Shown here: positions 2,530-21,331 of the stretch, one piece after another
How positions within the stretch are numbered: the first letter of the stretch is position 1
Layout: the number at the start of each line of letters is the position of its first letter
Source: a virus
Length of the DNA stretch: 21,331 nt
IMG/VR virus record: IMGVR_UViG_3300002494_000006
Span: 1 to 21,331 of that record
Strand: one strand, 5' to 3'
Made by a program: the position numbers and the translations under genes
Notes under the pieces: model-generated
Database searches by the model: none
Seen by the model: only the letters and a program-made list of their open reading frames with translations
Told to the model about the DNA's origin: nothing

Positions 2530-2956
2530 GCCTGATTTCTTAACTGTAGAAGAAGCTTTTAGGAGAAAGGTTAAACATCCTGTTTTTGTTAAATACGGTG
2601 ATACTATCATCGGCAAAAAAGTTGATGATGAAGTTTTCTTCAACTATTCTGCCGATGATAGTATTACTTTATTTATAAAAGACATGCTTAAAATATATAA
2701 AGCTAAAGTAATACAAGATAAATACAACTATAATAGACAAGCTTTTTTAACTATAACAGGGCAAAAAGTTTACTTTACACAAGACTTACCAACTTACAAA
2801 GGGCATATACATTATAGATTATTCCCTAATCTTTACACATCAGATTTTACTGATTTATCAGTTGCTTACAATGTTTTACAGATACTGGAAGGTAAAAGGA
2901 CGGAAGCAGAAGTTAATAAAATTTATCAAGATATAGAGGAGCAGTATAGAAAATGA
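2516..2956 (+). CDS. Unknown 146-residue protein
   Basis: I do not recognise this family. The start ATG 2516 has AAGGAG at 2503-2508 and overlaps the end of the previous gene; the stop overlaps the start of the ATP-grasp gene by 4 bases, so the three genes look translationally coupled. The protein is soluble, mixed alpha/beta and aromatic-rich, with no signal peptide or membrane segment. Its C-terminus is an acidic helix (EGKRTEAEVNKIYQDIEEQY). Its position between portal and an ATP-grasp enzyme would allow a virion role or a partner of the enzyme; neither is shown. The coding region contains a large perfect inverted repeat (listed separately). Confidence 0.75.
   Translation: MLLTEPDFLTVEEAFRRKVKHPVFVKYGDTIIGKKVDDEVFFNYSADDSITLFIKDMLKIYKAKVIQDKYNYNRQAFLTITGQKVYFTQDLPTYKGHIHYRLFPNLYTSDFTDLSVAYNVLQILEGKRTEAEVNKIYQDIEEQYRK
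2601..2664. repeat. Perfect 15-bp inverted repeat with nested hairpin, inside a gene
   Basis: Bases 2601-2615 (atactatcatcggca) are the exact reverse complement of 2650-2664. The 34-base interval can fold further: gaag at 2630-2633 pairs with cttc at 2638-2641 around a tttt loop, and agtt pairs with aact outside it. In RNA the outer stem can add four more pairs (2597-2600 with 2665-2668, two of them G-U). It lies about 85 bases into the 146-residue gene, and no T-run follows, so it is not a simple terminator. Confidence 0.85.
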
Positions 2957-4161
2957 AAGCGTTAGTAATCGGCACTGGGATTGAGTTTTCACATGTTTTA
3001 GCTTTGGCTGAGGCGGGAGTTGAAACTTACTATTATACCGATTTTATTTCAACCTTTCCTTCATTTGACGATTTTGCATCAGGGCAAGGCTTTACTAATA
3101 TAAAGAAAGTTCACAATCCGTTTTCATATATTGATAAAGTAGATTTAATAGCTAATTTTGATGTTCTTAACGGAGATTTGTTTGAGTTTTTGAAAAAGAA
3201 AGGCTACAAAACTTTCGGAGGCGGAGTATCAACAGAGTTAGAATTAAACAGAAGAGCTTTGAAATCTGCTTTAAATGTAGTTAAACTCCCTTCCCCTAAC
3301 TATAGAATAGTTAAAGGTTATGATAATATACCAGTTCCAAGCGTAGTTAAACTTTCTATTTTTAGAGGCTCAATGGAGACTTTTATTCTTAAGAATGAAA
3401 CACAAAAGAGAAATATTAAGACTAGGATTGAAATAGAGTTTGGGGCTTTTTTAAAAAATGTAGAGTTTGTAGTTGAAGATTTGATAGATTTAGATAAAAA
3501 CTATGTAGAATGCGGTATTGATGCTTTTTTCGATGCAGACAAGGGCGGATTTATTTTTCCTTTATTGTTTGGTGTTGAATATAAAAAAGGTGTATATATA
3601 GGCAGAGTTATAAACAGTCTTGGAGAATTACCTAAACCTATTCAAGAAACAGTTTTAAAGTTATCTCAACTACTTATTAAAGCTGGTTATAGAGGTATGC
3701 TTTCAACTGAAGAGTTTTTAAACGTTCGGACAGGCAAGCATTACTTTTTAGATATAACCGTAAGAGGTGCTTATCCTTTATCTCTTGGTTATAGATATGC
3801 AATAGAGAATTTTAAAGATGTAGTGTTTAATAGCGTAGAGCCTAAGTTTAAAGGTAAGTATTATGTTGCCGTGCCATTTAATGTAGAAGAAACAAAAAAT
3901 ATGTATGTGAATGTAAAATATCCTGATAAAGATAAGAGATATAACTTCGAAGCGTTAATGAAAGTTAAAAATGATTATTACTTACCTAAAGCAGAGCAAC
4001 CTTCAGGTGGTATAGTATGTGAAGTATTCAACACTTTAGATTTAAATAAAATTAAACAAACAATGTCTGATTTACTTAGCAATATAGAAGCTTACTCTTT
4101 AACTGATAAGTTGGAGCAGTTGGAGGACTGTTATAATGAGTTTATTAAACTCGGTAAGTAA
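2953..4161 (+). CDS. PurD-like ATP-grasp enzyme
   Basis: This is a 402-residue protein with the layout of the ATP-grasp superfamily, closest in feel to phosphoribosylamine-glycine ligase (PurD, about 430 residues). It starts with a Rossmann-like domain (ALVIGTGIEFSHVLALAEAG, residues 3-22). A linker GYKTFGGGVSTELELNRRAL resembles the PurD segment that leads into the ATP-binding lobe. There is a probable ATP-binding Lys in PSVVKLSIFRGS. Then come ECGIDAFF (186-193), GMLSTEEFL (248-256) and FLDITVRGAYP (266 on). In the last motif the usual metal-binding pair Glu-x-Asn appears as Asp267-x-Thr269, so the active site is altered. Such enzymes join an acid to an amine using ATP. Standing among virion genes, it may modify a phage or host-surface protein instead of making purines; that is inference. 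Start ATG 2953 overlaps the previous stop by 4 bases. Confidence 0.72.
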   Translation: MKALVIGTGIEFSHVLALAEAGVETYYYTDFISTFPSFDDFASGQGFTNIKKVHNPFSYIDKVDLIANFDVLNGDLFEFLKKKGYKTFGGGVSTELELNRRALKSALNVVKLPSPNYRIVKGYDNIPVPSVVKLSIFRGSMETFILKNETQKRNIKTRIEIEFGAFLKNVEFVVEDLIDLDKNYVECGIDAFFDADKGGFIFPLLFGVEYKKGVYIGRVINSLGELPKPIQETVLKLSQLLIKAGYRGMLSTEEFLNVRTGKHYFLDITVRGAYPLSLGYRYAIENFKDVVFNSVEPKFKGKYYVAVPFNVEETKNMYVNVKYPDKDKRYNFEALMKVKNDYYLPKAEQPSGGIVCEVFNTLDLNKIKQTMSDLLSNIEAYSLTDKLEQLEDCYNEFIKLGK

Positions 4162-4546
4162 TCAGCTTGTAAAGAAAGATGAGATAGAGCAAGTAGTTAA
4201 AGAAAAAGCTGCTCTTAAACTATCACAAGAAGATGTAGTAAACTATGCTATACATAGACAAATCGAAGACTTAGAAACTGCAAGAAAAATATTACATCAA
4301 GCTTATATACAAGCAGAATTACTTTACAATGATGCGGAGTTGTTCGCTAAAGTAAAAAATCCAGCAAGGACTTTGGCGGATATACTAAAGACAAAAAATG
4401 AAATTGCAAGAGAGTTGATTTCTTTATCCAACGCTACTGATAAATTAAAACCAAAACAAGAACAAATTTCTACTCCTTTAATAAACATTAACATTACAAC
4501 TCAAAAGTCGATTGAAGACTTCATAGAAGTGGAGGTTGAAGAATGA
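4136..4546 (+). CDS. Unknown helical protein, 136 residues
   Basis: I do not recognise this family. Residues about 10-105 are almost all predicted helix with many Ala, Glu, Lys and Leu (for example EDLETARKILHQAYIQAELL), and the C-terminus is acidic (DFIEVEVEE). The start ATG 4136 has GGAGG at 4122-4126 and overlaps the ATP-grasp gene by 26 bases; the stop overlaps the next start by 4 bases. A small terminase subunit would be of this size and helical, and none has been found elsewhere in the window, but there is no clear DNA-binding motif. A chaperone or other assembly protein is equally possible. Confidence 0.72.
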   Translation: MSLLNSVSNQLVKKDEIEQVVKEKAALKLSQEDVVNYAIHRQIEDLETARKILHQAYIQAELLYNDAELFAKVKNPARTLADILKTKNEIARELISLSNATDKLKPKQEQISTPLININITTQKSIEDFIEVEVEE

Positions 4547-5361
4547 ATGTAAATGATATAAAACTTGTCTCTTCACAAGATGAGTTATTTCCGAAATGTG
4601 CTAATACTGCTTGGAAGAGTAAGTTTTCCAACTCTTGGAAAGAGTGTGAAGTTTGGTCTGGAGATAAAAGATATTATTGTTTGACTGATAAAATAGCGCA
4701 AGTATATATTTTAGATGTAGATAACCTCACAACAAGCTCAACTTTCAAATTTCCTTTACCAGTTAAATCTTATGAGCCTGATTTATTTTTAAGCTATCGT
4801 AATAATCAAGCTAAAAGAAAAACTGAAGGTGTGAAAGGATATATAGTTGGAAACGAGTTTACAACAAAAGAAAATATACAAATTAAAGAATTAAAATTTT
4901 ATTTAACTTCTGATGTTAAAGTTCCGCAATCTTATGTATTAAATAAGTTTAAGATAACAGCTACAAGCTTTTATATGCAGTTTCCTTTATTAATAGAAAC
5001 ATTAGCAAGAAAGGTATCAAGAGCTATTGCAGAGGCTAATGCTCCTTTATTAATAGAAGCATTAGCAAGAAAGGCATCAAAAGTTATTGCAGAAGCTAAT
5101 ATTCCTTTATTATTTGCTCATCATAAACAAGCTCCAGTTTGCAACTCTTGGAGAAGTTTTGATAAGTGGAGTATTGTTAACAATTGGAGAGATTTTTATT
5201 GCGGTCTATTATTAACAAGAGTATCAAGAGTTAATGCAGAAGCTAATGTCCCTGTATTAGGTAATGCAACTGTGCAAAGGCGTTGTGCTAATAGTAGTTT
5301 TTGGAGTAAATTTAATAATTGGAATAGTGTTAATAGGTGGAGTGATTTTTATTGCAATTAA
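4543..5361 (+). CDS. Repeat-rich protein with Cys-bracketed, Trp-rich modules
   Basis: This is a 272-residue protein of unknown function with clear internal repetition. Three modules begin and end with Cys and are full of Trp: residues 19-46, 200-220 (CNSWRSFDKW...WRDFYC) and 248-271 (CANSSFWSKFNNW...WSDFYC). Between the first and the others lie two nearly identical 20-residue copies of PLLIE(T/A)LARK(V/A)S(R/K)(A/V)IAEAN, with a decayed third copy (LLLTRVSRVNAEANVPVL) between modules 2 and 3. The pattern suggests growth by duplication, as seen in phage receptor-binding or adhesion proteins, and the neighbours downstream look like tail/fibre genes. The paired Cys could form disulfides or bind metal. 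GGAGG at 4531-4535 supports ATG 4543. No reverse transcriptase gene is present, so a diversity-generating retroelement is not indicated. Confidence 0.75.
   Translation: MNVNDIKLVSSQDELFPKCANTAWKSKFSNSWKECEVWSGDKRYYCLTDKIAQVYILDVDNLTTSSTFKFPLPVKSYEPDLFLSYRNNQAKRKTEGVKGYIVGNEFTTKENIQIKELKFYLTSDVKVPQSYVLNKFKITATSFYMQFPLLIETLARKVSRAIAEANAPLLIEALARKASKVIAEANIPLLFAHHKQAPVCNSWRSFDKWSIVNNWRDFYCGLLLTRVSRVNAEANVPVLGNATVQRRCANSSFWSKFNNWNSVNRWSDFYCN
4981..5112 (+). repeat. 60-bp in-frame tandem repeat
   Basis: Bases 4981-5040 and 5041-5100 are near-identical 60-base units (9 differences by eye), followed by the first 12 bases of a third. A diverged partial copy sits at 5209-5256. The unit encodes 20 residues, so expansion or contraction keeps the frame. 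Confidence 0.9.
5140..5355 (+). repeat. Duplicated Cys/Trp module (two copies; a third at 4597-4680)
   Basis: The segments 5140-5202 and 5284-5355 encode matching modules with the pattern Cys, Asn-Ser, Trp, Phe, Trp, then W-x-D-F-Y-C, and share long stretches of DNA such as gatttttattgc. A more distant copy at 4597-4680 starts tgtgctaata like the third copy. Confidence 0.8.
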
Positions 5362-5377
5362 GATATGGAGTTGACGT

Positions 5378-6550
5378 ATGAATAAAAATTCTATAAATCT
5401 CTTAAATTTACCTATAACTAAAATTACTGGTGAGTTTGTAATATTAAACGAAAATAAAAATGTCATATTCCCGCAAATACTTCAAACATTTGAAGCATCA
5501 TACTCTCTTAATGCTTTTAGTGTTTATGACGGTTTTTATTTAAATAATAAAATAATTTACGTATTTAACCAATACGGTGATAAGGTTTTGTATAATTTAA
5601 ACAGCTTATATAATACGCCTAATTTCAAAGGCTTTTGTGTATTCGGGAATGTGTATTTTACGTTTTATCAAGATAAATGTTTAGTGATAGACACTAAGAC
5701 AGACACAGTAAAAACAATTACTTTAACAATAGATAATGCCGTTCAAGGTATTGTTAAAGTAAAGCAGTTAACATCGCAACTTTTTGCTATAATAACAAAC
5801 AATCCTACAACTATTCATTTATTTGGTTTAGATAGTGCAGGAGCTATAGCATCGGCTACTAACGGAAGCACAGTCAATATTAACTCATTTTCTTATGCTA
5901 CATTTTCTAATCCTGTTCATAATATAGACTTAATATATTTTGACAACAAGCTTTATTTGCTTGGAGATGATTATACTGTTATTTTAAATATGGATATAAA
6001 AGATATTATTTACCTACAAACAATACAAACATTTAATTATAGATATACTCCGTTTGACGAATTCGAAAATGTTGGAATAAAATTTGTTAGAGAAACACAA
6101 TCTTTTTATTTGTTTTATCATATGCTTTATAACAATTATATTTACATTACTAAAGATTTAAAAAATTATTATTTCGGAAGAGAAACTGTATTTTTAACTC
6201 CTGATATTTGTTTTAAATTAAATGAGTTTAAATTCTATTTAATTACTAAAATTTTACAAAGTGGGTTTCAATTAACAACAGACTATCACGAAATTACTTT
6301 CAGATTAAATTTACCTTATGTAGTTTTGAAATCAGCTGAGATAAACATACCTGAAGTTCAAACTGATACGCCCGATAGAGTAGCAACTATGACTATTGAA
6401 GCAAGATATGATAACGGTTATAATATTTGGAGTTATGGTGTTTTATATGATAAGAGCAATTACAGAATTTTAGTTCGTGGTGAAGAATTTGTAATCTCTC
6501 TTTATTCCACTAACGCGTTAAGAATTGAGGGGTTTAATCTTTGGGCGTAA
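5378..6550 (+). CDS. Probable tail-associated beta-rich protein
   Basis: This is a 390-residue protein I cannot place in a named family. It is made of short aromatic/hydrophobic strands separated by turns, with recurring patterns such as YFDNKLYLLGDDYTVILNM and NNKIIYVFNQYGDKVLYNL. That is the look of a beta-propeller or other all-beta fold. There is no signal peptide or membrane segment and little charge. Proteins of this type in phages often form tail stabilisation or receptor-facing parts. It follows the repeat-rich gene and precedes other probable tail genes. The start ATG 5378 has GGAG at 5367-5370. The stop overlaps the next gene (TTG 6541) by 10 bases. The structural role is inferred from position and fold appearance only. 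Confidence 0.72.
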   Translation: MNKNSINLLNLPITKITGEFVILNENKNVIFPQILQTFEASYSLNAFSVYDGFYLNNKIIYVFNQYGDKVLYNLNSLYNTPNFKGFCVFGNVYFTFYQDKCLVIDTKTDTVKTITLTIDNAVQGIVKVKQLTSQLFAIITNNPTTIHLFGLDSAGAIASATNGSTVNINSFSYATFSNPVHNIDLIYFDNKLYLLGDDYTVILNMDIKDIIYLQTIQTFNYRYTPFDEFENVGIKFVRETQSFYLFYHMLYNNYIYITKDLKNYYFGRETVFLTPDICFKLNEFKFYLITKILQSGFQLTTDYHEITFRLNLPYVVLKSAEINIPEVQTDTPDRVATMTIEARYDNGYNIWSYGVLYDKSNYRILVRGEEFVISLYSTNALRIEGFNLWA

Positions 6551-7094: not shown

Positions 7095-8546
7095 TTGAGT
7101 ATAGTTTTAACTGATAAACAAGCAGAGATATATAACACCTTCTTCAACAAACCTAATACAAGATGGGTGTTATCTGTCGGTGGTAAAGGTTCTGCTAAAA
7201 CAACAGTATCTGTTATAATCTTACTTACTTTATTCTTTGATGAAAGATTTAAAAACTCGCAGATACTAATTGCAAGGGAAAGTTTAAGAGATTTGAAAAA
7301 CACACTTGTTGCAGAGTTTAGAAAGAAATGCGCAGAAATCGGTGCAAAGCAGGATGAGGTGTTTATTGTTAAAGATGATTTACAGTATATAGAAAACTTA
7401 GTCACTGGCACTAAGATTTTCTATCTTTCTTTATCTGACAAAAACCAGCAATATCGCTCTGTTTTATCTTATGAGTTTAACGTTGTTATAATAGACGAGC
7501 TTGACCGTATTAGTGAAGAAGCTTTCGATGAAGTAGCGCAAAGGATGAGATTAAGAAGAGATTTTGAAAAAGGATTACTAAATTTAAACCCAGTGCCTGA
7601 AACACACTGGGTTTATCGTAAATTTGTAAAAAATAACTACCCACAGACTGAGATTATTAAGTCCTCTTCATATGATAACTTCATCAAAGTTAAAATCCCT
7701 GTTCATGTATTTACATCAAAAGCTAAACCTTATGTGTATGAAGATAAAGAGTATTATGTAATAAACAATACACGGTATGAAGTCATTGGTAGAGAAGGAG
7801 ATTATATTCTTGCTAAACAGTTTAACTTATCTCATTCATTTTACGTAGAGATGGAGCATCGTAATTATGCTTTTAAAAGAGTTATGCTTTATGGAGAATG
7901 GGGTTCGGCTTATGTAGATAATGGTTTATACACTTCATCTTTCACTGAAGCTAATGTATTTAAAGGAGTAATAACACCTAAAGATTTACAATACTTTTAT
8001 AAAGTTTACGCAGGCTTAGACTTTGGATTTAGAAGACCAGCATTTGTTTTACTTGCTGAAGATGAGTGGGGAAGGTTAATAGTCATAGACGAATTGCTTG
8101 GCGAAAACGTTTCTACTCTTCAATTTATTGACTTAGTAAGAAGACGCTTAAGAGAAAAATGGAGGCTTGATGCTTTACAAGTAGAATGGTATGGTGATAT
8201 CGCTGGAAGACAAGCTTCACAATCTGATGGCATTTCTATTATAAGTAGAATTAGACAAGATTACAATATTGATGTAATCACGAATAAAGTGCCGATTATG
8301 GACAGTGTAGGACTGATTAGAGAATTGCTTGATAAAGATATCCGCAATCAGAAAGCTCTTCAAGTTTCACCTGATGCACCGATTAGCACTGCTGGTTTTT
8401 TAGGAGAGTTTAAAATGGATGATTACGGCAAACCTGTAAAAGACGGCTACTACGACCATATACATGATGCTTTAAGGTATGTGATATGGGGAGTTGCAAG
8501 ACAAAGTAAATACAATAAATTTAAAGTTGTAGTTCCTGACTATTGA
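7095..8546 (+). CDS. terL: Terminase large subunit (packaging ATPase/nuclease)
   Basis: This 483-residue protein has both terminase domains. ATPase: Walker A GGKGSAKT at residues 29-36 and Walker B VVIIDE with Asp134-Glu135. RNase H-like nuclease: AGLDFG with Asp309, a second acidic strand LIVIDE with Asp332, and YYDHIHDALRY with Asp454/Asp458. It cuts concatemeric DNA and pumps it through the portal. In Walker A the Gly before Lys is Ala34, a deviation from the usual GxGKT. I use TTG 7095 as start because GGAG at 7085-7088 is 6 bases upstream and the nearby ATG 7091 is out of frame and stops at once. A perfect 11-bp inverted repeat falls in the coding region (7585-7615). Confidence 0.93.
   Translation: MSIVLTDKQAEIYNTFFNKPNTRWVLSVGGKGSAKTTVSVIILLTLFFDERFKNSQILIARESLRDLKNTLVAEFRKKCAEIGAKQDEVFIVKDDLQYIENLVTGTKIFYLSLSDKNQQYRSVLSYEFNVVIIDELDRISEEAFDEVAQRMRLRRDFEKGLLNLNPVPETHWVYRKFVKNNYPQTEIIKSSSYDNFIKVKIPVHVFTSKAKPYVYEDKEYYVINNTRYEVIGREGDYILAKQFNLSHSFYVEMEHRNYAFKRVMLYGEWGSAYVDNGLYTSSFTEANVFKGVITPKDLQYFYKVYAGLDFGFRRPAFVLLAEDEWGRLIVIDELLGENVSTLQFIDLVRRRLREKWRLDALQVEWYGDIAGRQASQSDGISIISRIRQDYNIDVITNKVPIMDSVGLIRELLDKDIRNQKALQVSPDAPISTAGFLGEFKMDDYGKPVKDGYYDHIHDALRYVIWGVARQSKYNKFKVVVPDY
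7585..7615. repeat. Perfect 11-bp inverted repeat inside terL
   Basis: Bases 7585-7595 (taaacccagtg) are the exact reverse complement of 7605-7615, with a 9-base loop. The arms fall in the codons for the NLNPVPETHWVYR stretch after Walker B, so protein constraint may explain part of it. No T-run follows. Confidence 0.75.
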
Positions 8547-10919: not shown

Positions 10920-11876
10920 ATGAAATTTGGTAAAATTTTCAAAGGTGTTAGTAAATCTATAGGTAAAGTTGCGGGCGGTGCAGCTTTAGGGTTTATAAAC
11001 TCTGGCGGTAATCCTTTAGGTGCGATTATAGGAGGTTTAGGCGGAGCGTTGTCTGGAGGCGGTGGTGGAGGTGGTGGCGGTGGAGGTGGTGGCGGGGGTA
11101 ATGTTGGTGTTTATATTCCACCTACCGTTCAAGAAGCATACAACATAATTAAAGGATTAGAAGGACAGGTTGGGAATATTGCTTCAACTCAGTATCGTAT
11201 ACAAAAACCCTACTTAGACGAAGCTTTACAAACATTTAGACAATTCCCTACTACAATAAATCAAATATTTAACGACACTGAAAATAGAGTTGCACATAGA
11301 TATGCAAGCTTATTTGACAATATACAAAATCAAATGAATAACCAATGGAGTAAATCCGCTTTAGGCTTATCTGCTTTAGGTATGTATAACACTCCTGCTA
11401 CACAGCTAACTCAAGCAGATATAGTAAGTGATTTATTCGGAAGAGTAGCTGAAGAAAAAACTCAAGCTTTAAACAATTTAGATATAAATAAAATGAGTAG
11501 CTTTATTGATTACTACAGCAAAGCACCGCGATTATTAACTTCATTTGGAGAAGTTTATGCAGACTTAGACCCAGAGATGCGTAAATATCAAACACAATTA
11601 CAATTAGCGGGAATATTAAACGGATTAAATACATTTATATACCCACAACAAAGCGCTTCAGCTAAAATAGGAGAAATGATAAACAAAGCATTAGAGAAGC
11701 ATAGTGGAGATTTACCTTCTTGGGATAAAGTAAAAAGTGGTATTAGTAGTATAGGTAATGCTATCGGCAGGATTTTCGGCAGAAGAGGCTCTTCAGTTTC
11801 TTTCTCTGTACCAACTCCGAGTTATGGTTTTGCTAATGCTTTTAATAACGCATTTAAAATTCCTAAGATATTTTAA
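10920..11876 (+). CDS. Probable internal virion / DNA-ejection protein with poly-Gly tract
   Basis: This is a 318-residue protein at the start of the block where podoviruses keep their core (ejection) proteins. The N-terminus is a Gly/Ala-rich amphipathic-to-hydrophobic region (KVAGGAALGFINSGG, GAIIGGLGGALSG) that could insert in a membrane. It runs straight into 15 consecutive glycines. Residues about 70-240 are long polar helices (QNQMNNQWSKSALGLSALGM). The C-terminus has a second Gly/Ser segment (SGISSIGNAIGRIFGRRGSS). This resembles the small ejection proteins of T7-type phages, which enter the host envelope to form a DNA channel. GAGG at 10908-10911 precedes ATG 10920. The function is inferred from composition and position. 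Confidence 0.66.
   Translation: MKFGKIFKGVSKSIGKVAGGAALGFINSGGNPLGAIIGGLGGALSGGGGGGGGGGGGGGGNVGVYIPPTVQEAYNIIKGLEGQVGNIASTQYRIQKPYLDEALQTFRQFPTTINQIFNDTENRVAHRYASLFDNIQNQMNNQWSKSALGLSALGMYNTPATQLTQADIVSDLFGRVAEEKTQALNNLDINKMSSFIDYYSKAPRLLTSFGEVYADLDPEMRKYQTQLQLAGILNGLNTFIYPQQSASAKIGEMINKALEKHSGDLPSWDKVKSGISSIGNAIGRIFGRRGSSVSFSVPTPSYGFANAFNNAFKIPKIF
11055..11099 (+). repeat. Glycine-codon run (15 GGN codons)
   Basis: This is a 45-base run of only GGA, GGC, GGT and GGG codons in an otherwise AT-rich genome. It encodes 15 consecutive Gly. It is an obvious place for length variation and for sequencing error. Confidence 0.92.
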
Positions 11877-12833: not shown

Positions 12834-13901
12834 ATGTGGGGAGCGTTATTAAGGGGTTTATCTTTCTTACCAACAGCAGGAAAAGGCGCAATAAAATGGG
12901 CAAAAAAACATCCGATACTTACTACAATAGGGCTGGGCACAGCAGGAACTATTGCTTTATCTGGTAAAGATACACAACAACAAGCACAGGAACAGCAAGC
13001 ACAGCAACAACCACAACAGCAACAACCACAACAGCAACAACAGAAACAACAGAAACAACCGCAACAACAGCAACAATCCGAAATTCCTCAATTACCTCCA
13101 CTTGAACAAATACTACCGCAATTCGAACAAATGCAAACTTCTTTACCGCTACAAGGTTATAATGTGAATTTGGAAGATAACCAAGGATTACAACAAATAC
13201 AAAATCAAATACTTTCACTATTCCAAGATTTAGATAAATATAGAGTAATGTATGAAGAGACAGCACAAAAATATACACAAGCTAATGAAGAGTATGAGAA
13301 ACAACTCCTCGGTATATTGCCTACCATTCCTTTACTACTTACTAAAACTCCTTTAAACAATATGACTAACGAAGATTTACTATCACATACAAACACTTTA
13401 TTTAGCTCTATGCCTTATAGCACAGCTCTACAAAGTGTTGATAAATTAATGAAAGGTTATTATTTAGCAAAAATGAATGGAGTTGACCCAAGCTCTTTAT
13501 CTACTATAGACTTAGTAGAAATTGCTGAAAACCCTGTGTTAGCTAAATCTGTAGATGAGAATTTAGCTAACTTTTTGACACAAATAGGAGAAGTTATAAA
13601 ATACAAGATAAAGAGTAATATGGATAAAGTTGGAGCATTAAAAGACCAATATCAAAATGTATTGAAAGAATTGGAAGAAAAAGGTAAGCTATATAAAAGT
13701 TTAATTGATGCTTTCAAGTTTGAAGCAAAACTTAATTTTGATATAAATAAATTTAATGAAACAATGAGATATAAATGGGCAGAACACGAAGCGAAACAAG
13801 ACTACCGAAACAAATCATTAGCTTTGAGACGAGAAAGTTTAAACTTAAGAAAACAAAAACAAAACGCACAAGAAACTGATGTAGACAAACTTTTTAAATA
13901 A
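12834..13901 (+). CDS. Probable internal virion / ejection protein with poly-Gln tract
   Basis: This is a 355-residue protein. The N-terminus has a basic stretch then a hydrophobic segment (HPILTTIGLGTAGTIALSG, residues 26-44) that may associate with membrane. Residues 48-81 are almost all Gln with a few Pro, Lys, Ala and Glu. The rest is helical, with coiled-coil character at about residues 255-350 (KDQYQNVLKELEEKGKLYK; SLALRRESLNLRKQKQNAQE). It is followed 17 bases later by the giant ejection-type gene. AAGGTG precedes ATG 12834. The family is not recognised; the role is inferred from context. Confidence 0.64.
   Translation: MWGALLRGLSFLPTAGKGAIKWAKKHPILTTIGLGTAGTIALSGKDTQQQAQEQQAQQQPQQQQPQQQQQKQQKQPQQQQQSEIPQLPPLEQILPQFEQMQTSLPLQGYNVNLEDNQGLQQIQNQILSLFQDLDKYRVMYEETAQKYTQANEEYEKQLLGILPTIPLLLTKTPLNNMTNEDLLSHTNTLFSSMPYSTALQSVDKLMKGYYLAKMNGVDPSSLSTIDLVEIAENPVLAKSVDENLANFLTQIGEVIKYKIKSNMDKVGALKDQYQNVLKELEEKGKLYKSLIDAFKFEAKLNFDINKFNETMRYKWAEHEAKQDYRNKSLALRRESLNLRKQKQNAQETDVDKLFK
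12975..13076 (+). repeat. CAA/CAG-rich low-complexity tract (poly-Gln)
   Basis: About 34 codons are mostly CAA and CAG with scattered Pro, Lys, Ala and Glu codons. The tract creates long open shadow frames on both strands (Asn/His-rich in the + strand shadow, Val-rich on the - strand) that are not genes. Confidence 0.9.
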
Positions 13902-13918: not shown

Positions 13919-16900
13919 ATGGGTATATTAGAAAAAGTAAACGAAGGAGTGGAGTTTATAGCAAGTATTCCTACAGAGATAGCGGATACAGCCTATAGTC
14001 TGGCAAATACTATCTACTATACAGCTACAGGTAAAACTCTTGGAAAACCGCTTCATTCAAAAGTGCTTGTTAATGATATAACAACAAAACTTACAGGAAG
14101 AAAAGTTTTTAAAAATATTCCTACAGAAAAAGAGTTGCAAAATCCAGATAAAGCAAAAGAGTATTTTTCGAAAGCTGTTAAAAATAATAACAAAGAGCTT
14201 TTAGAAATAGTTTTGCGAAAATCAACAGAAAATCCTATTACTGCTGAAGCTGTTTTAAAATCTGCTGATGATGATGTTTATAATAGAGTTATTGCTATAT
14301 ATAACAACAAAGCAAATACTGAAGACGGTGTAGTGTTAGCGAGAGAGTTATCTCTTTTATCTGAATTAGCGAAAAATCCTGAAATTAGACAAAAGCTTCC
14401 TAAATCAGTTAAGTTTATTGAAAAGTTAAATAACAACAACTTTTTTAAAGAACATCCAGAGCTATTACATGTAAAAGAAACAATAGAAAGATATCACACT
14501 GTTAATAAAACACTTGATTATATTAACTTACTTTCTGTAGCTACTTTCGGAGCGGGTAAAATTGGAGCAAAAGTTTTCAAAACTCCTTTAATGAAGGCTG
14601 TGTCTCATGTTATAGCTGGTGCAAGTGCAGGAACGCCAATCATTACAGGTGTTTATAAAGCATCTGTAAATCATGAAAGCTTATCTCAAGCAGTATCTCC
14701 AATTGATGTTTTAATGATTGGGGATGTTATAAGGAGCGGTAAAGACATCCTTAAAACAAAAGAAGCTATCGCTACATATGAAATCTACAATCAAATGAAA
14801 AATCCAACCTTTAATCCAACCGAACATTTACTAACATACCTATCTAAGAAACATGATTTAACAGATAAAGAATTAGAAGATTTTAAACTTGCTGTTATGC
14901 AATCTGAAAGAGATGAGTTTAAAAATTCCGAGACATTCTACAACGCTTTATCGAAAAACGTAGGAGAAAAATACACATCCATTCTTAAAAAGACAATATC
15001 AAGAAAGAGCTTCGAAGATGATTTAGTAAAATATCATAATCAAATAGTTGAAGCTTTCTTAAATCATGAACCTTTAAAAGAATATTTTATAAAAACTTAT
15101 AATAAAAACGGTAAAATTAAAATTGAAGATATAAACAAAGTTGAGGAAGATTTATTTAAAATGTCAAAGACTGACCCCGTGATTGCTAACTTTATGAAAT
15201 TTAACAGGCAAAATAAATTGATTGGAGAATTGATACAAGCAATAGAACACGGTAATAAAGAAGTAGCGGTAAGCATTATGAGACCTGTTGCTATAGGTAA
15301 AGATGATACTCCAGCAATCGAAGATAGAGTGATTGAGTTAACAAGACCGCTTAAATCTATTATCGATGAGTTAGAAACTGAATTTTCAAAAAATGCAGTT
15401 ATATCAATTACTTATAATAATAAACAAGGTGAAACAATTTCCAGAACAATAAAAGGTTTTTATGCTCCTTCTAATGATGAGTTTAGAATTCTGCATGGGA
15501 AGTTTAAGGTTTTAAAAGGCGGAGATGATTGGGAAGAAATAGAAGATACTTTTACTATTCCTTTATCAAGAACACACGAAATTGAAACTACACTAAAAGA
15601 AATTGCTAAAGAAAGAGGTTATATTGATATAAAACCTGTAGAAAATGCGGTAGAGTATATTAAACCTTCTACTAATATATTCCCGTTTAAACTTACAAGC
15701 TTAGCAAATAAATTATTAAAATTAGAAAACACACTCTTAAAAAATAATCAAAAAATAAAAGATAAAGAAGTAGAGGAGTTTAGAAAGCTTGTAGAAGAAG
15801 CTTACGAACACGGTTATCTCCCACCTGTCATTAGACAAAAAGTAGGTGAAAAAGAGATAGATTTGGTAGCCACTTTAGACTATTATTTACAACTCAAACC
15901 ACAAGAAGTTTTTAAAGTTATAAAAAGCAATATCATACAGCATACAAAAGATATATTGTCAAGAAATAAAGAAACATCAAGAATGTTTAAAGAAGTAGTT
16001 TACGACGAAAGCGAAGCGTTGCTTAAGCTTGTTAAGAATGAGTTGGGCGAATATCAAGATATGATAAAAGGAATGAAACAAGATGTTAAAGAGATGGGGA
16101 AAGATATATTAGATAAAACAAAATCATTTGTTAAAGAAGACACCAAACTTAATAAAGAATTATTGGAAGCTGTTAATGTTTATGTTAAAGATGTTGTTGG
16201 TAATTTAAAACAAGTAAATAACTCTGTTAAAAATATTAAAAGTAAAATCAAGGAGTATGTAAAAGAAGAAGGAGGAGGTTTATCAAAATATGTAAATCAC
16301 GAGCTCGGTAGAATTGATAACATGTTTAGATTAAATCAAGAACTTAGTAAAATCGAAGATTTAGCAGAACAAATTAGAAAAAGACAGTTTAAAGAGTTGT
16401 ATAAAGTGTTTAAAAAAGAATTAAAAGATATGAAAGTAAGTGTGAAAGGTTATAGACAAATAGGTGAAGATGTTTTATCAGATATCAATAACATAGATAA
16501 AGAGTTAAAAAATACTTATTCAGAAATAAAAAACTCTGTAGCTAATGTAAAGGAATTGCTTAAAACAGCTCAAGAGGTTTCAAAAATAAATAAAACTGAT
16601 TTAATAAAAAATATAGAAACAGATTTAAAACTTATAGATGAAAGCTTGTTGAATTTAGATACAACAGATTTATATACTTCAATTAAAGGCTTCTTCGAAA
16701 CAGCTAAAGAACGTTATCAAGACTATGCTTTACAAACAGAGAAAATAGAAAGTAAAATTAAAGACTTAAGCGAATTGGCTAAAGCTTTAGCTTCTGCAGA
16801 AAGAGTAAGTTTAAGAGATAACATCAAGCTTACAGACTTGATAGATAAATCTGCTTTAAGAATAGATGCAGTAGCTAATACTGTTAAGAAGATAGCTACT

Positions 16901-18952
16901 ACACCTTACTATGAAATGAGAAGACAAGGTAGCGGTTTTGCAACAACTTTTGATAGTTATGATGATTTTAAAACTTACGCTTCATTAAAGTATTTAGCTC
17001 CTACTTTTAAACATTTAAAATCTACTATATTTTTACACAAATTTGTGGATGAGTTAGAAGAGTTAGAAAAAAGAAATCCGCACGGTTTAAATCCTACTCA
17101 AAGTCTTGTAAAAGATTTCTTAAATCTATATCTACATAAAGGTTTAGGAGATGTTGCAAAAGCTCAAAGAATACTCGGAAATTTAATAACTCTTCTTAAT
17201 CCGTCCGTAGCTCTTGGAAACTTTGCTGCTAGCTTCCAAATTTTACATTCTTTATTCCCAAGTTTAGACATTATGAAAATCGGTGAAATAAAAAATGTTT
17301 GGAATAAAGAATTTAGAAGGATGCTATTCTCTGAGGGGCTTTATAAATACAACATACTTAATCCGTTTTATGTAGGAGTTGAAACAATATTAAAATCTCA
17401 TGTATTAACTAATTTGAAAAATGATGAAATATTTAACAAAGTAATTTTAGACTATGCTAAACATACTGGAATACAAGATGAGACAATTTTAGAAAGTATT
17501 AAAGCTTATTATCTTGATAGAAGAGAAGAGTTTGCGGACGATATTATAAACTATATCTCTGGTGTAGATGTCGGCGCTTTACAGGTATGGGCTGTTAAGT
17601 TCGGTAAAATCGGTGAAATGGTAATGCCATGGTATAGATTTATTTTTACCCCATTTTCATTAGCTGTTGAAACAATAAAGAATTTTAGAAATATGCCAGA
17701 GTATATTCAACGTTATGGCGTTGGTAAAACAATCGGTAAAACGTTAGCTTTTTCTACCTTTTCAGCAATAGCGTTAGGCTCTCAAGCTGTGCCAATTATG
17801 GCTCCAGTTGAAACTACTTATTCTTTATCTAAAACATTTGTTAACTTACTTGCTACAATATTTGGTGAAGATGATGTATTTACAGATAGAAACTTTGCGC
17901 AATTAGTGTTAAGAGAATTGGATTATAATGTATTAAAGACAGGATTACTTGACCCAAACGAAAGAGTTAATTTTTATACAAGCTTTGGCTCTGCTTTACT
18001 TCAAGCAATAGCAGGCGCAGAAGCTCAAAGCTGGGATACAAATCCTTTCATACACAGTTTAAAAGTTGGGTTAGATTTTATCTCTAAGATAGGTGCAAGC
18101 GGTGTTATATCCCCAACTTCAGGCTCTTACGTTGCCGATATTCCTGCTCCTGCTTTCTCCTTAATTCAAAACATCGTTAAGAAAACAATGTTTGTAAATG
18201 ATGAACAAACAAAAGCTACACAAACTGCGCTTGCTTTAATTCAGTCTATACCTATAACTAACAACCTTTACAAAGAAGTAGCAGGCAGAACACTCGTTAA
18301 AGGTGTGGGGGAAAGCGGAAAAGAAGTGATATGGCAATCTTCACTACCGCAAGAGCTGTTATCAAAAGAAGGGCAAGGCTTACTCGGTTTAGCTCATTTA
18401 GTCGGATTTATGATATTGAATGCTGATACAATCTTTAATGGAGCTGAAATACAAAAAGCTATGCAGCTATTTAAATATGAATTAGCTACTGATGAAGAGA
18501 AAAAGAAAATGTTTAGCCCTGTAAAAAATCCGCCAGGAACTGATTATTATAAACCCCTTAACTTCAAAGATTATAATGTATTCAGAAATAAACCAGAAGA
18601 TATAATAGCTACTCTTAAATATATTCCAGAAGAAGATTTACCGAAAGTTAAAACAAGAGCTGATGATTTGATTATTACAAATATTAAAAAGTTAGCTAAG
18701 CTTGTAGAAGAAAGTAAAGGCACAAGTAAAGAAATAGAGGAGATTAAACATAGATATGAAGCTTTACAAAACTATATTATAGTAGCAGATTATTTAGATT
18801 GGGATAAAATATCGAATGATGAAATTGATACAACATTAGATAAAATGAAAGAGTTGCATCAAAGAGCATATAAAGTCTTGAAATTGAAAGGAATTGACGT
18901 AGATTATAAAGAGATAATTAGAAGTAAAAGAAAGCTATCAGGAAGTAGATAA
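13919..18952 (+). CDS. Giant internal virion / DNA-ejection protein (1677 residues)
   Basis: This is the longest gene of the window and the last large one of the late block, the place of the big core protein (gp16-like) in podoviruses; T7 gp16 is about 1300 residues. I see no transglycosylase motif in it. The N-terminal third is helical with a Gly/Ala-rich hydrophobic segment near residues 205-245. Residues about 680-1000 are long Lys/Glu coiled coils (DMIKGMKQDVKEMGKDILDK). After about residue 1000 comes a more ordered part with LLNPSVALGNFAASFQ (about 1092), PWYRFIFTPFSLAVET (about 1236) and a hydrophobic segment LAFSTFSAIALGSQAVPIMA (about 1272). These recall the large polyvalent phage proteins. 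The C-terminus is charged helix. It probably travels into the host with the DNA. AAGGTGG precedes ATG 13919. Confidence 0.72.
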   Translation: MGILEKVNEGVEFIASIPTEIADTAYSLANTIYYTATGKTLGKPLHSKVLVNDITTKLTGRKVFKNIPTEKELQNPDKAKEYFSKAVKNNNKELLEIVLRKSTENPITAEAVLKSADDDVYNRVIAIYNNKANTEDGVVLARELSLLSELAKNPEIRQKLPKSVKFIEKLNNNNFFKEHPELLHVKETIERYHTVNKTLDYINLLSVATFGAGKIGAKVFKTPLMKAVSHVIAGASAGTPIITGVYKASVNHESLSQAVSPIDVLMIGDVIRSGKDILKTKEAIATYEIYNQMKNPTFNPTEHLLTYLSKKHDLTDKELEDFKLAVMQSERDEFKNSETFYNALSKNVGEKYTSILKKTISRKSFEDDLVKYHNQIVEAFLNHEPLKEYFIKTYNKNGKIKIEDINKVEEDLFKMSKTDPVIANFMKFNRQNKLIGELIQAIEHGNKEVAVSIMRPVAIGKDDTPAIEDRVIELTRPLKSIIDELETEFSKNAVISITYNNKQGETISRTIKGFYAPSNDEFRILHGKFKVLKGGDDWEEIEDTFTIPLSRTHEIETTLKEIAKERGYIDIKPVENAVEYIKPSTNIFPFKLTSLANKLLKLENTLLKNNQKIKDKEVEEFRKLVEEAYEHGYLPPVIRQKVGEKEIDLVATLDYYLQLKPQEVFKVIKSNIIQHTKDILSRNKETSRMFKEVVYDESEALLKLVKNELGEYQDMIKGMKQDVKEMGKDILDKTKSFVKEDTKLNKELLEAVNVYVKDVVGNLKQVNNSVKNIKSKIKEYVKEEGGGLSKYVNHELGRIDNMFRLNQELSKIEDLAEQIRKRQFKELYKVFKKELKDMKVSVKGYRQIGEDVLSDINNIDKELKNTYSEIKNSVANVKELLKTAQEVSKINKTDLIKNIETDLKLIDESLLNLDTTDLYTSIKGFFETAKERYQDYALQTEKIESKIKDLSELAKALASAERVSLRDNIKLTDLIDKSALRIDAVANTVKKIATTPYYEMRRQGSGFATTFDSYDDFKTYASLKYLAPTFKHLKSTIFLHKFVDELEELEKRNPHGLNPTQSLVKDFLNLYLHKGLGDVAKAQRILGNLITLLNPSVALGNFAASFQILHSLFPSLDIMKIGEIKNVWNKEFRRMLFSEGLYKYNILNPFYVGVETILKSHVLTNLKNDEIFNKVILDYAKHTGIQDETILESIKAYYLDRREEFADDIINYISGVDVGALQVWAVKFGKIGEMVMPWYRFIFTPFSLAVETIKNFRNMPEYIQRYGVGKTIGKTLAFSTFSAIALGSQAVPIMAPVETTYSLSKTFVNLLATIFGEDDVFTDRNFAQLVLRELDYNVLKTGLLDPNERVNFYTSFGSALLQAIAGAEAQSWDTNPFIHSLKVGLDFISKIGASGVISPTSGSYVADIPAPAFSLIQNIVKKTMFVNDEQTKATQTALALIQSIPITNNLYKEVAGRTLVKGVGESGKEVIWQSSLPQELLSKEGQGLLGLAHLVGFMILNADTIFNGAEIQKAMQLFKYELATDEEKKKMFSPVKNPPGTDYYKPLNFKDYNVFRNKPEDIIATLKYIPEEDLPKVKTRADDLIITNIKKLAKLVEESKGTSKEIEEIKHRYEALQNYIIVADYLDWDKISNDEIDTTLDKMKELHQRAYKVLKLKGIDVDYKEIIRSKRKLSGSR

Positions 18953-19139: not shown

Positions 19140-19309
19140 CATCTAAAAAAGTTATTGAAATTGATAAAGGTGCTTATAAGCTTTTAGTTGAAGTAGAAGT
19201 TAATGATTTAACTACAGAATTGCCAGAGATTGGTGAAGGGGTGGCTAACACAATAGCTGAAGCTGTTGAGAGACATACAGAGCAAAGTAAAAAGAAAAAG
19301 AAAGATTAA
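19136..19309 (+). CDS. Unknown 57-residue protein, last gene of the late block
   Basis: This short ORF starts at ATG 19136 with a strong AAGGAG at 19123-19128 and a 4-base overlap (ATGA) with the previous stop, which together make it a convincing gene. The protein begins MTSKKVIEIDKGAYKLLVEV, has an acidic middle (ELPEIGEGVANTIAEAVE) and ends in a lysine run (SKKKKKD). I do not recognise it. Its stop TAA (19307-19309) overlaps the stop of the convergent nuclease gene, and a terminator follows 20 bases later. Confidence 0.75.
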   Translation: MTSKKVIEIDKGAYKLLVEVEVNDLTTELPEIGEGVANTIAEAVERHTEQSKKKKKD

Positions 19310-19635
19310 TCCCACTCCCGAACTTGAATAACACTACCGTCAGGTAGTGTTTTTATATGAAATACATACACTGTAAAACCTCTACTCAACCAGCCTAAGA
19401 CCTTGGCTTGGTTGAGTGAAAGTTTGTTGTTATCTAGTTTTACTTCAACGAAAGCAGGCTTCAATATCTCATTATAAGGATGTTTATAACTAACAACTAT
19501 AAAGTCAGGGAAGCCTCTGATTATTGGTGTATACAGTTTTACGGCTTCGTCAAAAATGTAATCTTTTAAGAACTTATACGTTGTTTTTTCCTTATCAAAT
19601 TTTTTATTTACAGATATTTCACAAATCTTCTTCAT
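19306..19635 (-). CDS. VRR-NUC-like PD-(D/E)XK nuclease
   Basis: This 109-residue protein has the compact nuclease core: RGFPDFIVV supplies the Pro-Asp, FVEVK the Glu-x-Lys, and LSLNQAKVLGWLSRG the Gln-containing helix of the VRR-NUC group. The active-site set is therefore Asp, Glu, Lys and Gln. Phage members act as structure-specific endonucleases, for example on branched DNA, in replication or recombination. I prefer the ATG at 19635 because GGAGG (19645-19649) is 9 bases upstream; the in-frame ATG at 19644 touches that site directly. It overlaps the zinc-ribbon gene by 17 bases. Its 3' end contains the terminator of the opposing late block, so its last codons serve two purposes. Confidence 0.78.
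   Translation of the reverse strand: MKKICEISVNKKFDKEKTTYKFLKDYIFDEAVKLYTPIIRGFPDFIVVSYKHPYNEILKPAFVEVKLDNNKLSLNQAKVLGWLSRGFTVYVFHIKTLPDGSVIQVREWD
19330..19354 (+). terminator. Rho-independent terminator of the rightward late block
   Basis: A perfect 9-bp stem aacactacc (19330-19338) / ggtagtgtt (19343-19351) with loop gtca is followed by a T-run (19350-19354). It lies 20 bases past the last rightward stop, within the last 17 codons of the convergent nuclease gene. The T-run is on the + strand only. Confidence 0.83.
19384..19417. repeat. Imperfect 12-bp inverted repeat in the nuclease gene
   Basis: actcaaccagcc (19384-19395) pairs with 19405-19417 with one bulged base (T19408) and a 9-base loop. 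It lies about 30 bases past the terminator. It could be a back-up stop for rightward transcription, but no T-run follows on the + strand. Confidence 0.6.
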
Positions 19636-19819
19636 CTTGAACATCCTCCATAACTAAATCTACATCAACTTTTCTTTTCTTAACATTCTTAAAAAGCTTT
19701 TTGTAGCAACGCTCGCATAAATCAAATTGATATCTGTCTTTACCTTTCATAACATCAATAAAAACAATTTCGTCAGGTGTGGTAAGAGACTTGCATAAAT
19801 CACAAACATACATTAGCAT
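19619..19819 (-). CDS. Small zinc-ribbon protein
   Basis: This 66-residue protein has two CxxC pairs, CDLC (6-9) and CERC (35-38), separated by a beta-type stretch (DEIVFIDVMKGKDRYQFDL). That is a typical zinc ribbon. The C-terminus is basic (KKLFKNVKKRKVD) then acidic (MEDVQDEEDL). Such proteins bind nucleic acid or protein partners; a transcription or replication accessory role is possible. GGAGGTGGAG lies just upstream of the ATG at 19819, within the last codons of the DndC-like reading frame that ends at 19800 in the -1 frame. The 20-base overlap fits the gene packing seen throughout this phage. Confidence 0.74.
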   Translation of the reverse strand: MLMYVCDLCKSLTTPDEIVFIDVMKGKDRYQFDLCERCYKKLFKNVKKRKVDVDLVMEDVQDEEDL

Positions 19820-19997
19820 GCTCCACCTCCTTTTCCCAAATTTCTTTTATCAAATCTAACTCTTCATTTGATATAAGCTTAAGCCCTGTTTGTTTTTCTG
19901 CTTCTAATAACTTTTCTAATAAAACCTTTCTAAACTCTAAAGTAAAACCACCTTTTACTAATTTACCTTTTCTAATTTTATCTCTTCTTAATTCAGG
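19800..19997 (-). CDS. C-terminal segment of the DndC-like protein, in the -1 frame
   Basis: Directly past the break at the A-run (minus strand, 19998-20002), the -1 frame is open for 65 codons to TGA (19800-19802). It reads PELRRDKIRKGKLVKGGFTL, then EFRKVLLEKLLEAEKQ, then LISNEELDLIKEIWEKE. This matches what I know of the DndC C-terminus: a basic stretch, then the G-(P/F)-(Y/F)-T-L-E-(F/A)-R motif, a Leu-rich helix, LIS(E/D)EEL and I...W. It has no ATG, GTG or TTG before a TTG at 19853, so it cannot be a normal separate gene. It is either the end of the DndC-like protein reached by frameshifting, or a broken gene or sequence error. With it the protein would be about 351 residues. Confidence 0.68.
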   Translation of the reverse strand, partial: PELRRDKIRKGKLVKGGFTLEFRKVLLEKLLEAEKQTGLKLISNEELDLIKEIWEKEVEHANVCL

Positions 19998-20854
19998 TTT
20001 TTAGAATTTTCTAATAAAAATTTTCTATACTCTGCTAAAGGCTTTAACCAATCTTCGCCGTTTTCAATTAAAGAACTTAATGATTTTTCTTTTTCAACAA
20101 CCGTGCAAGTCCAACAACCAAATCTGCTATTACCGCAAGAACTGCTTTCTGAACCTTCCTTTAACTCAACAATAACAGGGCATTCACCCGCATTTGCTTG
20201 TTTGTATAAATTAAACAACTCTCTATTGTTTACACCAAAAGGTGAAGGATTTTTAAGTAAATATTCCCGAACATCTTCTACACTCCAATCTCTAATAACA
20301 GGATAAATCAAAGCCCCTTTTAAAGAGTAATGTTTAAGGAATAAGCTATTGTCTATAGAAACTTCTTTTATAGTCTTGCTTCTATTTTTACTCTCTGATG
20401 AACGCACTCCTAACACTATAATAACTTCTCCGTGCTTTGAGATTTTATCTTTTACAAATTTATTAGTAGGTCTAATCTTTAATCTATCAGTGCACCACCT
20501 AAACTTTCTTGTCGGTGCAGTATAGCCTTTTCCTATAACACAAACCCAAAATGTTTCCTTTAACTCAGGCACTACTTTCTCAACATAGAAAGGCAAACCT
20601 TCTCTTTCCGCTGTCTCTTTTATTTTCTCTAACGTTTTATCTAAGTAATTAACTACTTTAGGAATTTCTACAAGCGTGTCTGAAGATATGATATATACAG
20701 GATTAGTAAGCTTGTCTTTAATCTGGGATAAAGCCTCCCAAACTAATTGCAATGATGCTGTGCTATCTTTACCGCCACTAAAACCAATAACAAACGGCTT
20801 ATTTTGAGATAAATAAACTTCTTGAATTTCTTGATACTTTTGCTTTAAATTCAT
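19988..20854 (-). CDS. DndC-like / PAPS-reductase-family PP-loop protein (frame broken near 3' end)
   Basis: This 288-residue reading frame matches the DndC family closely. The PP-loop is SGGKDS at 26-31. VYIISSDTLVEIPKVVNYL (53-71) follows, then RKFRWCTDRLKIRP with Cys121, and GEVIIVLGVR. Cys225 is in GECP, and Cys240, Cys247 and Cys250 in SCGNSRFGCWTC. These Cys probably hold an iron-sulfur cluster. DndC takes part in replacing a non-bridging oxygen of the DNA backbone by sulfur; other PAPS-reductase relatives act in sulfur assimilation. No dndB, dndD or dndE is visible here. The frame ends in ENSKNLN, short of the family's usual C-terminus, which continues in the -1 frame. GGAGG (20861-20865) overlaps the polymerase stop and supports ATG 20854. 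Confidence 0.86.
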   Translation of the reverse strand: MNLKQKYQEIQEVYLSQNKPFVIGFSGGKDSTASLQLVWEALSQIKDKLTNPVYIISSDTLVEIPKVVNYLDKTLEKIKETAEREGLPFYVEKVVPELKETFWVCVIGKGYTAPTRKFRWCTDRLKIRPTNKFVKDKISKHGEVIIVLGVRSSESKNRSKTIKEVSIDNSLFLKHYSLKGALIYPVIRDWSVEDVREYLLKNPSPFGVNNRELFNLYKQANAGECPVIVELKEGSESSSCGNSRFGCWTCTVVEKEKSLSSLIENGEDWLKPLAEYRKFLLENSKNLN

Positions 20855-20864
20855 TTTACACCTC

Positions 20865-21331
20865 CTAAGCTTTTGCTATAGATTTTATTACATCTGGTTG
20901 CTCTACTTCAAGTCTAAAATATTTTACAGGAATTCTTGCTTTATCGCATAACAAATCCCAAGCTTGCTCCATCTCTTGTTTTAAAGCATTAGCTATATCG
21001 TTAGCTTCTTCTTTATAGCATTCAATTATAATTTCATCATGTATAACATTTGCTATATCTAATGAAGAATATTTTTGTTTTAGATTGATTAGAGTTTGCT
21101 TTAAAAGCTCAGCTCCGCTTCCTTGTATCTGTAAGTTTAAAGCTTCGTTGTAAGATTGTGTTTTATATTTTCTACCGAGTATAGTCGTGTTTTCATAAAA
21201 CTTTGAAGAGTATAAAACATTTTTAACTTGCTGATGCTTTCTTGCTATCATTGGATAAGTCTCAAGCCATTTATGTTTGATGTATTCTCCTTCATCTTCC
21301 GATAAAGCAATGCCTGAATTTATGTAAACAT
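20865..21331 (-). CDS. Family A DNA polymerase, C-terminal part (5' end outside window)
   Basis: The frame is open to the window edge; an internal Met at 21251 is not the start, since the residues before it (KHKWLETYP) continue the family pattern. Visible are the segment LGRKYKTQ, the Gln-Gly helix LNLQIQGSGAELLKQTLINL, and motif C, NVIHDEIIIE (HDE at 21033-21041), with the Asp-Glu that bind the catalytic metals in the palm. About 155 residues are present, so the 3' exonuclease and most of the palm/fingers lie outside. It is the most upstream gene seen of the leftward block, followed after 10 bases by the DndC-like gene, and is expected to replicate the phage genome. Confidence 0.93.
   Translation of the reverse strand, partial: VYINSGIALSEDEGEYIKHKWLETYPMIARKHQQVKNVLYSSKFYENTTILGRKYKTQSYNEALNLQIQGSGAELLKQTLINLKQKYSSLDIANVIHDEIIIECYKEEANDIANALKQEMEQAWDLLCDKARIPVKYFRLEVEQPDVIKSIAKA

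Follow-up and report, generated by a model that had tools for sequence, protein, structure and literature searches.

The window analyzed here is the whole stretch of viral DNA, 21,331 nucleotides in length. On its minus strand, the end of a gene for a family-A DNA polymerase is followed by a DndC-like gene, a gene for a 66-residue protein, and a gene for a VRR-NUC-like protein. The features of this region are listed below.

20865 to 21329, minus strand: C-terminal part of a family-A DNA polymerase, whose gene immediately precedes the DndC-like gene and is truncated where the contig stops.
19988 to 20854, minus strand: 0-frame part of a DndC-like PP-loop gene (PAPS-reductase type), 288 amino acids.
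19998 to 20002, minus strand: run of five A's, one base shorter in the window than in both close relatives (TCTAAAAA-CCT versus TCTAAAAAACCT / TCTAAAAAGCCT).
19800 to 19997, minus strand: continuation in the -1 frame, equivalent to the conserved DndC C-terminal region, 65 codons plus a stop.
19619 to 19819, minus strand: small CxxC-type protein of 66 amino acids, the downstream neighbor, whose first 20 bases are shared with the -1 frame.
19306 to 19644, minus strand: VRR-NUC-like endonuclease, next in the operon, scoring just under the Pfam cut-off.

The 0-frame part of the DndC-like gene encodes the SGGKDS motif, a GYTAPTRKFRW loop, and the four Fe-S cysteines, and its product terminates with ...FLLENSKNLN. 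Reading the minus strand from position 20005 downward gives TCT AAA AAC CTG AAT TAA, with the five A's at 20002-19998, and this places the stop at 19988, directly after ENSKNLN, as the preliminary description had it. The -1 frame is opened only by a TAA located at 20003-20001, and its translation is PELRRDKIRKGKLVKGGFTLEFRKVLLEKLLEAEKQTGLKLISNEELDLIKEIWEKEVEHANVCL (65 codons, about 19997-19803), also given as PELRRDKIRKGKLVKGGFTLEFRK...LIKEIWEKEVEHANVCL. Its stop codon occupies 19802-19800, which results in a 20-base overlap with the next gene (ATG at 19819). No ATG, GTG, or TTG lies near its beginning. The two C-terminal family motifs previously noted in this frame, GGFTLEFRK and LISNEELDLIKEIW, match GGF(T/K)LEFRK and LIS..E..LIKEIW in both close relatives. 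The -1 frame aligns with the last 58-74 residues of uninterrupted homologues at 74-78% amino acid identity (E = 5e-28 and 5e-22), and none of the 5374 stretches of 66 codons in the -1 frames of other window genes is open. Given these in-register matches and the lack of comparable open stretches elsewhere in the window, the continuation is not a product of chance. The features originally described at this locus, namely a DndC-like gene with an early stop whose family C-terminal region continues in the -1 frame, from the lack of a usable start to the ending inside the next gene, are thereby confirmed.

The preliminary description had called for a comparison of the A-run in related phages. Two close relatives span the site, IMGVR_UViG_3300033894_000009 (L003, also G002; gene at 1352-2389) and IMGVR_UViG_3300035661_000134 (L002, also G001; gene at 5001-6038), whose DndC-like proteins are 94% and 87% identical to that of the window, respectively. 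Both resemble the window in the sequence around the site and in gene order (polymerase, dndC, then VRR-NUC), and in L003 a homologue of the 66-residue CxxC-type protein likewise sits downstream of the intact gene. Both differ from the window, however, in having one additional base in the A-run and a single open frame of about 346 amino acids. The codons at the site are TCT AAA AAG CCT GAG in L003, TCT AAA AAA CCT GAG in L002, and TCT AAA AAC CTG AAT in the window. A search of viral contigs with a pattern spanning the site, which admitted both run lengths, returned only L003 and L002; a pattern for the upstream stretch returned only one of them, and a protein search of viral contigs again returned only these two, though near-identical records may be missing from the set that was searched. 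No close relative of the gene was found in genome contigs. For L006-L009, which are further relatives from the group, no match to the DndC-like gene was obtained, in some cases because the contig stops short of it. In some 35 more distantly related viral homologues whose frame can be followed across this stretch, no break occurs at the window's site. A viral dndC homologue that is split in two frames, at a different position, occurs in IMGVR_UViG_3300044993_000431 (L062, around 3001-3650).

Of the 22 window genes (20.4 kb of coding sequence), dndC alone is divided between two frames when set against the open reading frames of four related phages; the remaining multi-frame matches were to antisense or spurious reading frames. 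A second one-base difference from L003 is situated at 19819-19830, about 180 bases downstream of the first, in the ribosome-binding spacer before the next gene. It breaks no gene. As a result of it, the ATGA stop/start overlap observed in L003 is gone, and the -1 frame extends by about six codons. Elsewhere in the window, the gene at 4543-5361 is highly variable, with 32-40% identity to its relatives versus 70-90% for most of its neighbors; it contains internal near-repeats (LLIEALARKASKVIAEAN; NSFWSKFNNWNSVNRWSDFYC), and its product may be a tail protein or one that binds the receptor. Two genes that lie close together (10920-11876 and 12834-13901) are predicted to encode structural or internal proteins of the virion, and these proteins contain a long run of glycines and low-complexity stretches rich in glutamine.

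The age of the break was assessed from substitutions on either side of it. In the comparison of the window with L003, dS is 0.50 and dN is 0.036 upstream of the break, and the corresponding downstream values are 0.34 and 0.038, such that dN/dS falls within 0.07-0.11 on both sides. With L002 employed to polarize the changes, 32 silent and 10 replacement changes are assigned to the window's branch in the upstream part, and four silent and two replacement changes in the downstream frame. About 24 replacements would be expected downstream had that segment evolved neutrally since the split, and the probability of observing two or fewer is 2e-8. The break is not old, because the downstream counts are far below this neutral expectation. 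If only the downstream part had been freed from selection, the break could occupy at most about 19% of the branch (5% level); if the whole gene had been freed, the limit is about 5%. By its substitution pattern, the -1 frame is under purifying selection and shows no sign of decaying, and the earlier statement that it has not eroded is borne out by both these counts and the lack of an internal stop codon. An old, decayed pseudogene was considered and rejected, there being neither relaxed constraint nor further lesions. An unspoiled downstream frame is what one would see if the sequence were in error, if the mutation had arisen very recently, or if recoding rescued the gene.

On the basis of these comparisons, the locus very probably contains an ordinary, single-frame phage dndC-like gene that in this particular sequence is one base short in its A-run. 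In the relatives, Ser-Lys-Lys-Pro is decoded through TCT-AAA-AAR-CCT; with the run shortened by one base, as in the window, the 0-frame runs into a stop within a few codons. When a frame break is validated by homology, stands alone, and has no other accompanying sign, a recent indel or an error of sequencing is the expected cause (PMC3711429). The chances are about even that the missing base was lost from the contig consensus through faulty base calling or assembly; that the sampled phage truly underwent a deletion, and did so very recently, is a serious possibility as well, if somewhat short of even. We lean slightly toward the consensus error, because the contig ends only 1.3 kb away from the site and the second one-base difference is located nearby. 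Nothing marks the five-A run at 19998-20002 as especially error-prone, since the A/T runs in window genes include 106 with five bases and 40 with six or seven.

A different explanation is that the shorter site is real and that the host ribosome, by programmed or otherwise utilized -1 frameshifting, or the RNA polymerase, by slippage that adds one A, slips at T_AAA_AAC to yield both a short form of 288 residues and a long, fused form. Such recoding would account for a -1 frame that is open and constrained and for a junction that brings back the family C-terminus in register, and A_AAC fits the Z_ZZN tetramer pattern in a formal sense. The heptamer T_AAA_AAC, however, does not conform to X_XXZ_ZZN, in keeping with the original remark that it is only partly canonical. 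In a systematic study in E. coli, the shift-prone tetramers were A_AA.G, U_UU.Y, C_CC.Y, and A_AA.A (PMC4066793). A_AA.C falls outside of this group even when a pseudoknot is supplied (PMC4066793), although the window's host may not follow the E. coli rules, and the nearest named phages by terminase and polymerase are too distant to indicate that host. Furthermore, the P-site Lys-tRNA would need to re-pair with UAA. The preliminary description had reported no strong downstream stem, and indeed the 70-120 bases downstream of the site fold no better than shuffled sequences (z = -0.73, 0.78, and -0.04), with a three-sequence consensus of this region showing no compensatory or covarying pairs. By inspection, no Shine-Dalgarno-like GGAGG is located just upstream of the site. 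None of the three hallmarks of programmed -1 frameshifting (a slippery motif, a stimulatory element, and a conserved break) was thus found here, and the arrangement is absent from both close relatives and from every viral homologue readable there. With regard to transcriptional slippage, a bacterial example involves runs of nine A's or T's (PMC5009743); five A's are short for such a process, and the long homopolymer run that it calls for is lacking. Finally, three other window genes, all of them uninterrupted, contain an in-frame T_AAA_AAC as well, at codon 182 (2953-4161), codon 53 (7095-8546), and codon 396 (13919-18952). Recoding of either type is, accordingly, very improbable. The preliminary description had left three options, and its homopolymer error and very recent mutation both stand, favored by intact relatives with one base more and by the constrained -1 frame, whereas real recoding is not supported.

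It is also very improbable that the truncation is real and purposeful, with the 288-residue protein serving as a functional DndC core and the downstream piece being dead. The short product does retain SGGKDS, the loop predicted to read DNA, and each of the four Fe-S cysteines. It lacks residues 287-346 of the intact form, however, and that segment contains Arg 290, Gly 297, Gly 302, Arg 309, Leu 327, Glu 332, and Ile 336, all seven of them conserved in 90% or more of a set of 30 homologues. In an AlphaFold2 model of the intact L003 protein (mean pLDDT of 91.3), residues 287-346 form a confidently ordered β-hairpin and two α-helices. A Foldseek search with this model pointed to the PP-loop/PAPS-reductase fold, and a sequence search of the PDB revealed no DndC. 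Even the shorter homologue from Thermus phage Tsatsa (319 amino acids) has the C-terminal part, and the downstream frame of the window is free of decay. Should the mutation be genuine, the 288-residue product would keep the PP-loop and the Fe-S ligands and lose the conserved, ordered C-terminal hairpin and helices. Judging from the model, it would probably be inactive, since the lost part is ordered and holds the seven conserved positions. The notion of two separate genes or domains, the second beginning within the -1 frame by translational coupling, can for practical purposes be dismissed: the -1 frame does open right around the first gene's stop, but it has no nearby start codon and the relatives encode both parts as one protein.

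The reading of the locus as a single DndC-like gene with one base missing from its A-run carries a caution for annotation, namely that it should be treated as one gene with a frame break in the record and neither as a recoded gene nor as two genes. Whether the missing base is an error or a mutation, the gene is biologically equivalent to its intact relatives, a lone, short phage DndC.

The window protein matches DndC (TIGR03183), the DNA phosphorothioation sulfurtransferase, with an E-value of 3e-108 and a score of 362.6 bits, above the curated cut-off of 290.4 (379.2 for the intact L003 protein), and its PADLOC match to DndC is at 2e-124. Like DndC, the phage form has the PP-loop SGGKDS, four Fe-S cysteines, FRWC, RFGCWTC, and a C-terminal R..G...R..L..LI..E...I. 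The cysteines of the window protein align with Cys 146, Cys 273, Cys 280, and Cys 283 of the 543-residue Salmonella DndC; these four carry the same numbers in the 540-residue enzyme from E. coli B7A. The loop in E. coli B7A DndC equivalent to GYTAPTRKFRW is predicted to read DNA, and the stretch 433-482 together with the last helix, in the numbering of that protein, is predicted to bind DndD (PMC12193691). Unlike bacterial DndC, the uninterrupted phage protein stops at a point corresponding to residue 404 of the 543-residue enzyme and so is without the predicted DndD-binding stretch and last helix. No dndB, dndD, or dndE partner was present among the neighbors scanned in the 41.9-kb relative (G001).

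The phage group nevertheless retains this lone, short DndC (about 346 amino acids) under strong purifying selection (dN/dS of about 0.07), and a shortened DndC that is so constrained while lacking the DndD-binding end is of slightly wider interest. One may guess that it uses its PP-loop to transfer sulfur or AMP to a nucleic acid, maybe against host restriction. Lone phage homologues of DndC are known, that of Thermus phage Tsatsa being one example (PMC11437467). Annotated as a "PAPS reductase" (XKB89950.1), the Tsatsa protein comes from a different phage and is about 32% identical; it, too, is short and DndC-like, is encoded in a single intact frame, and ends just past the same C-terminal motif.
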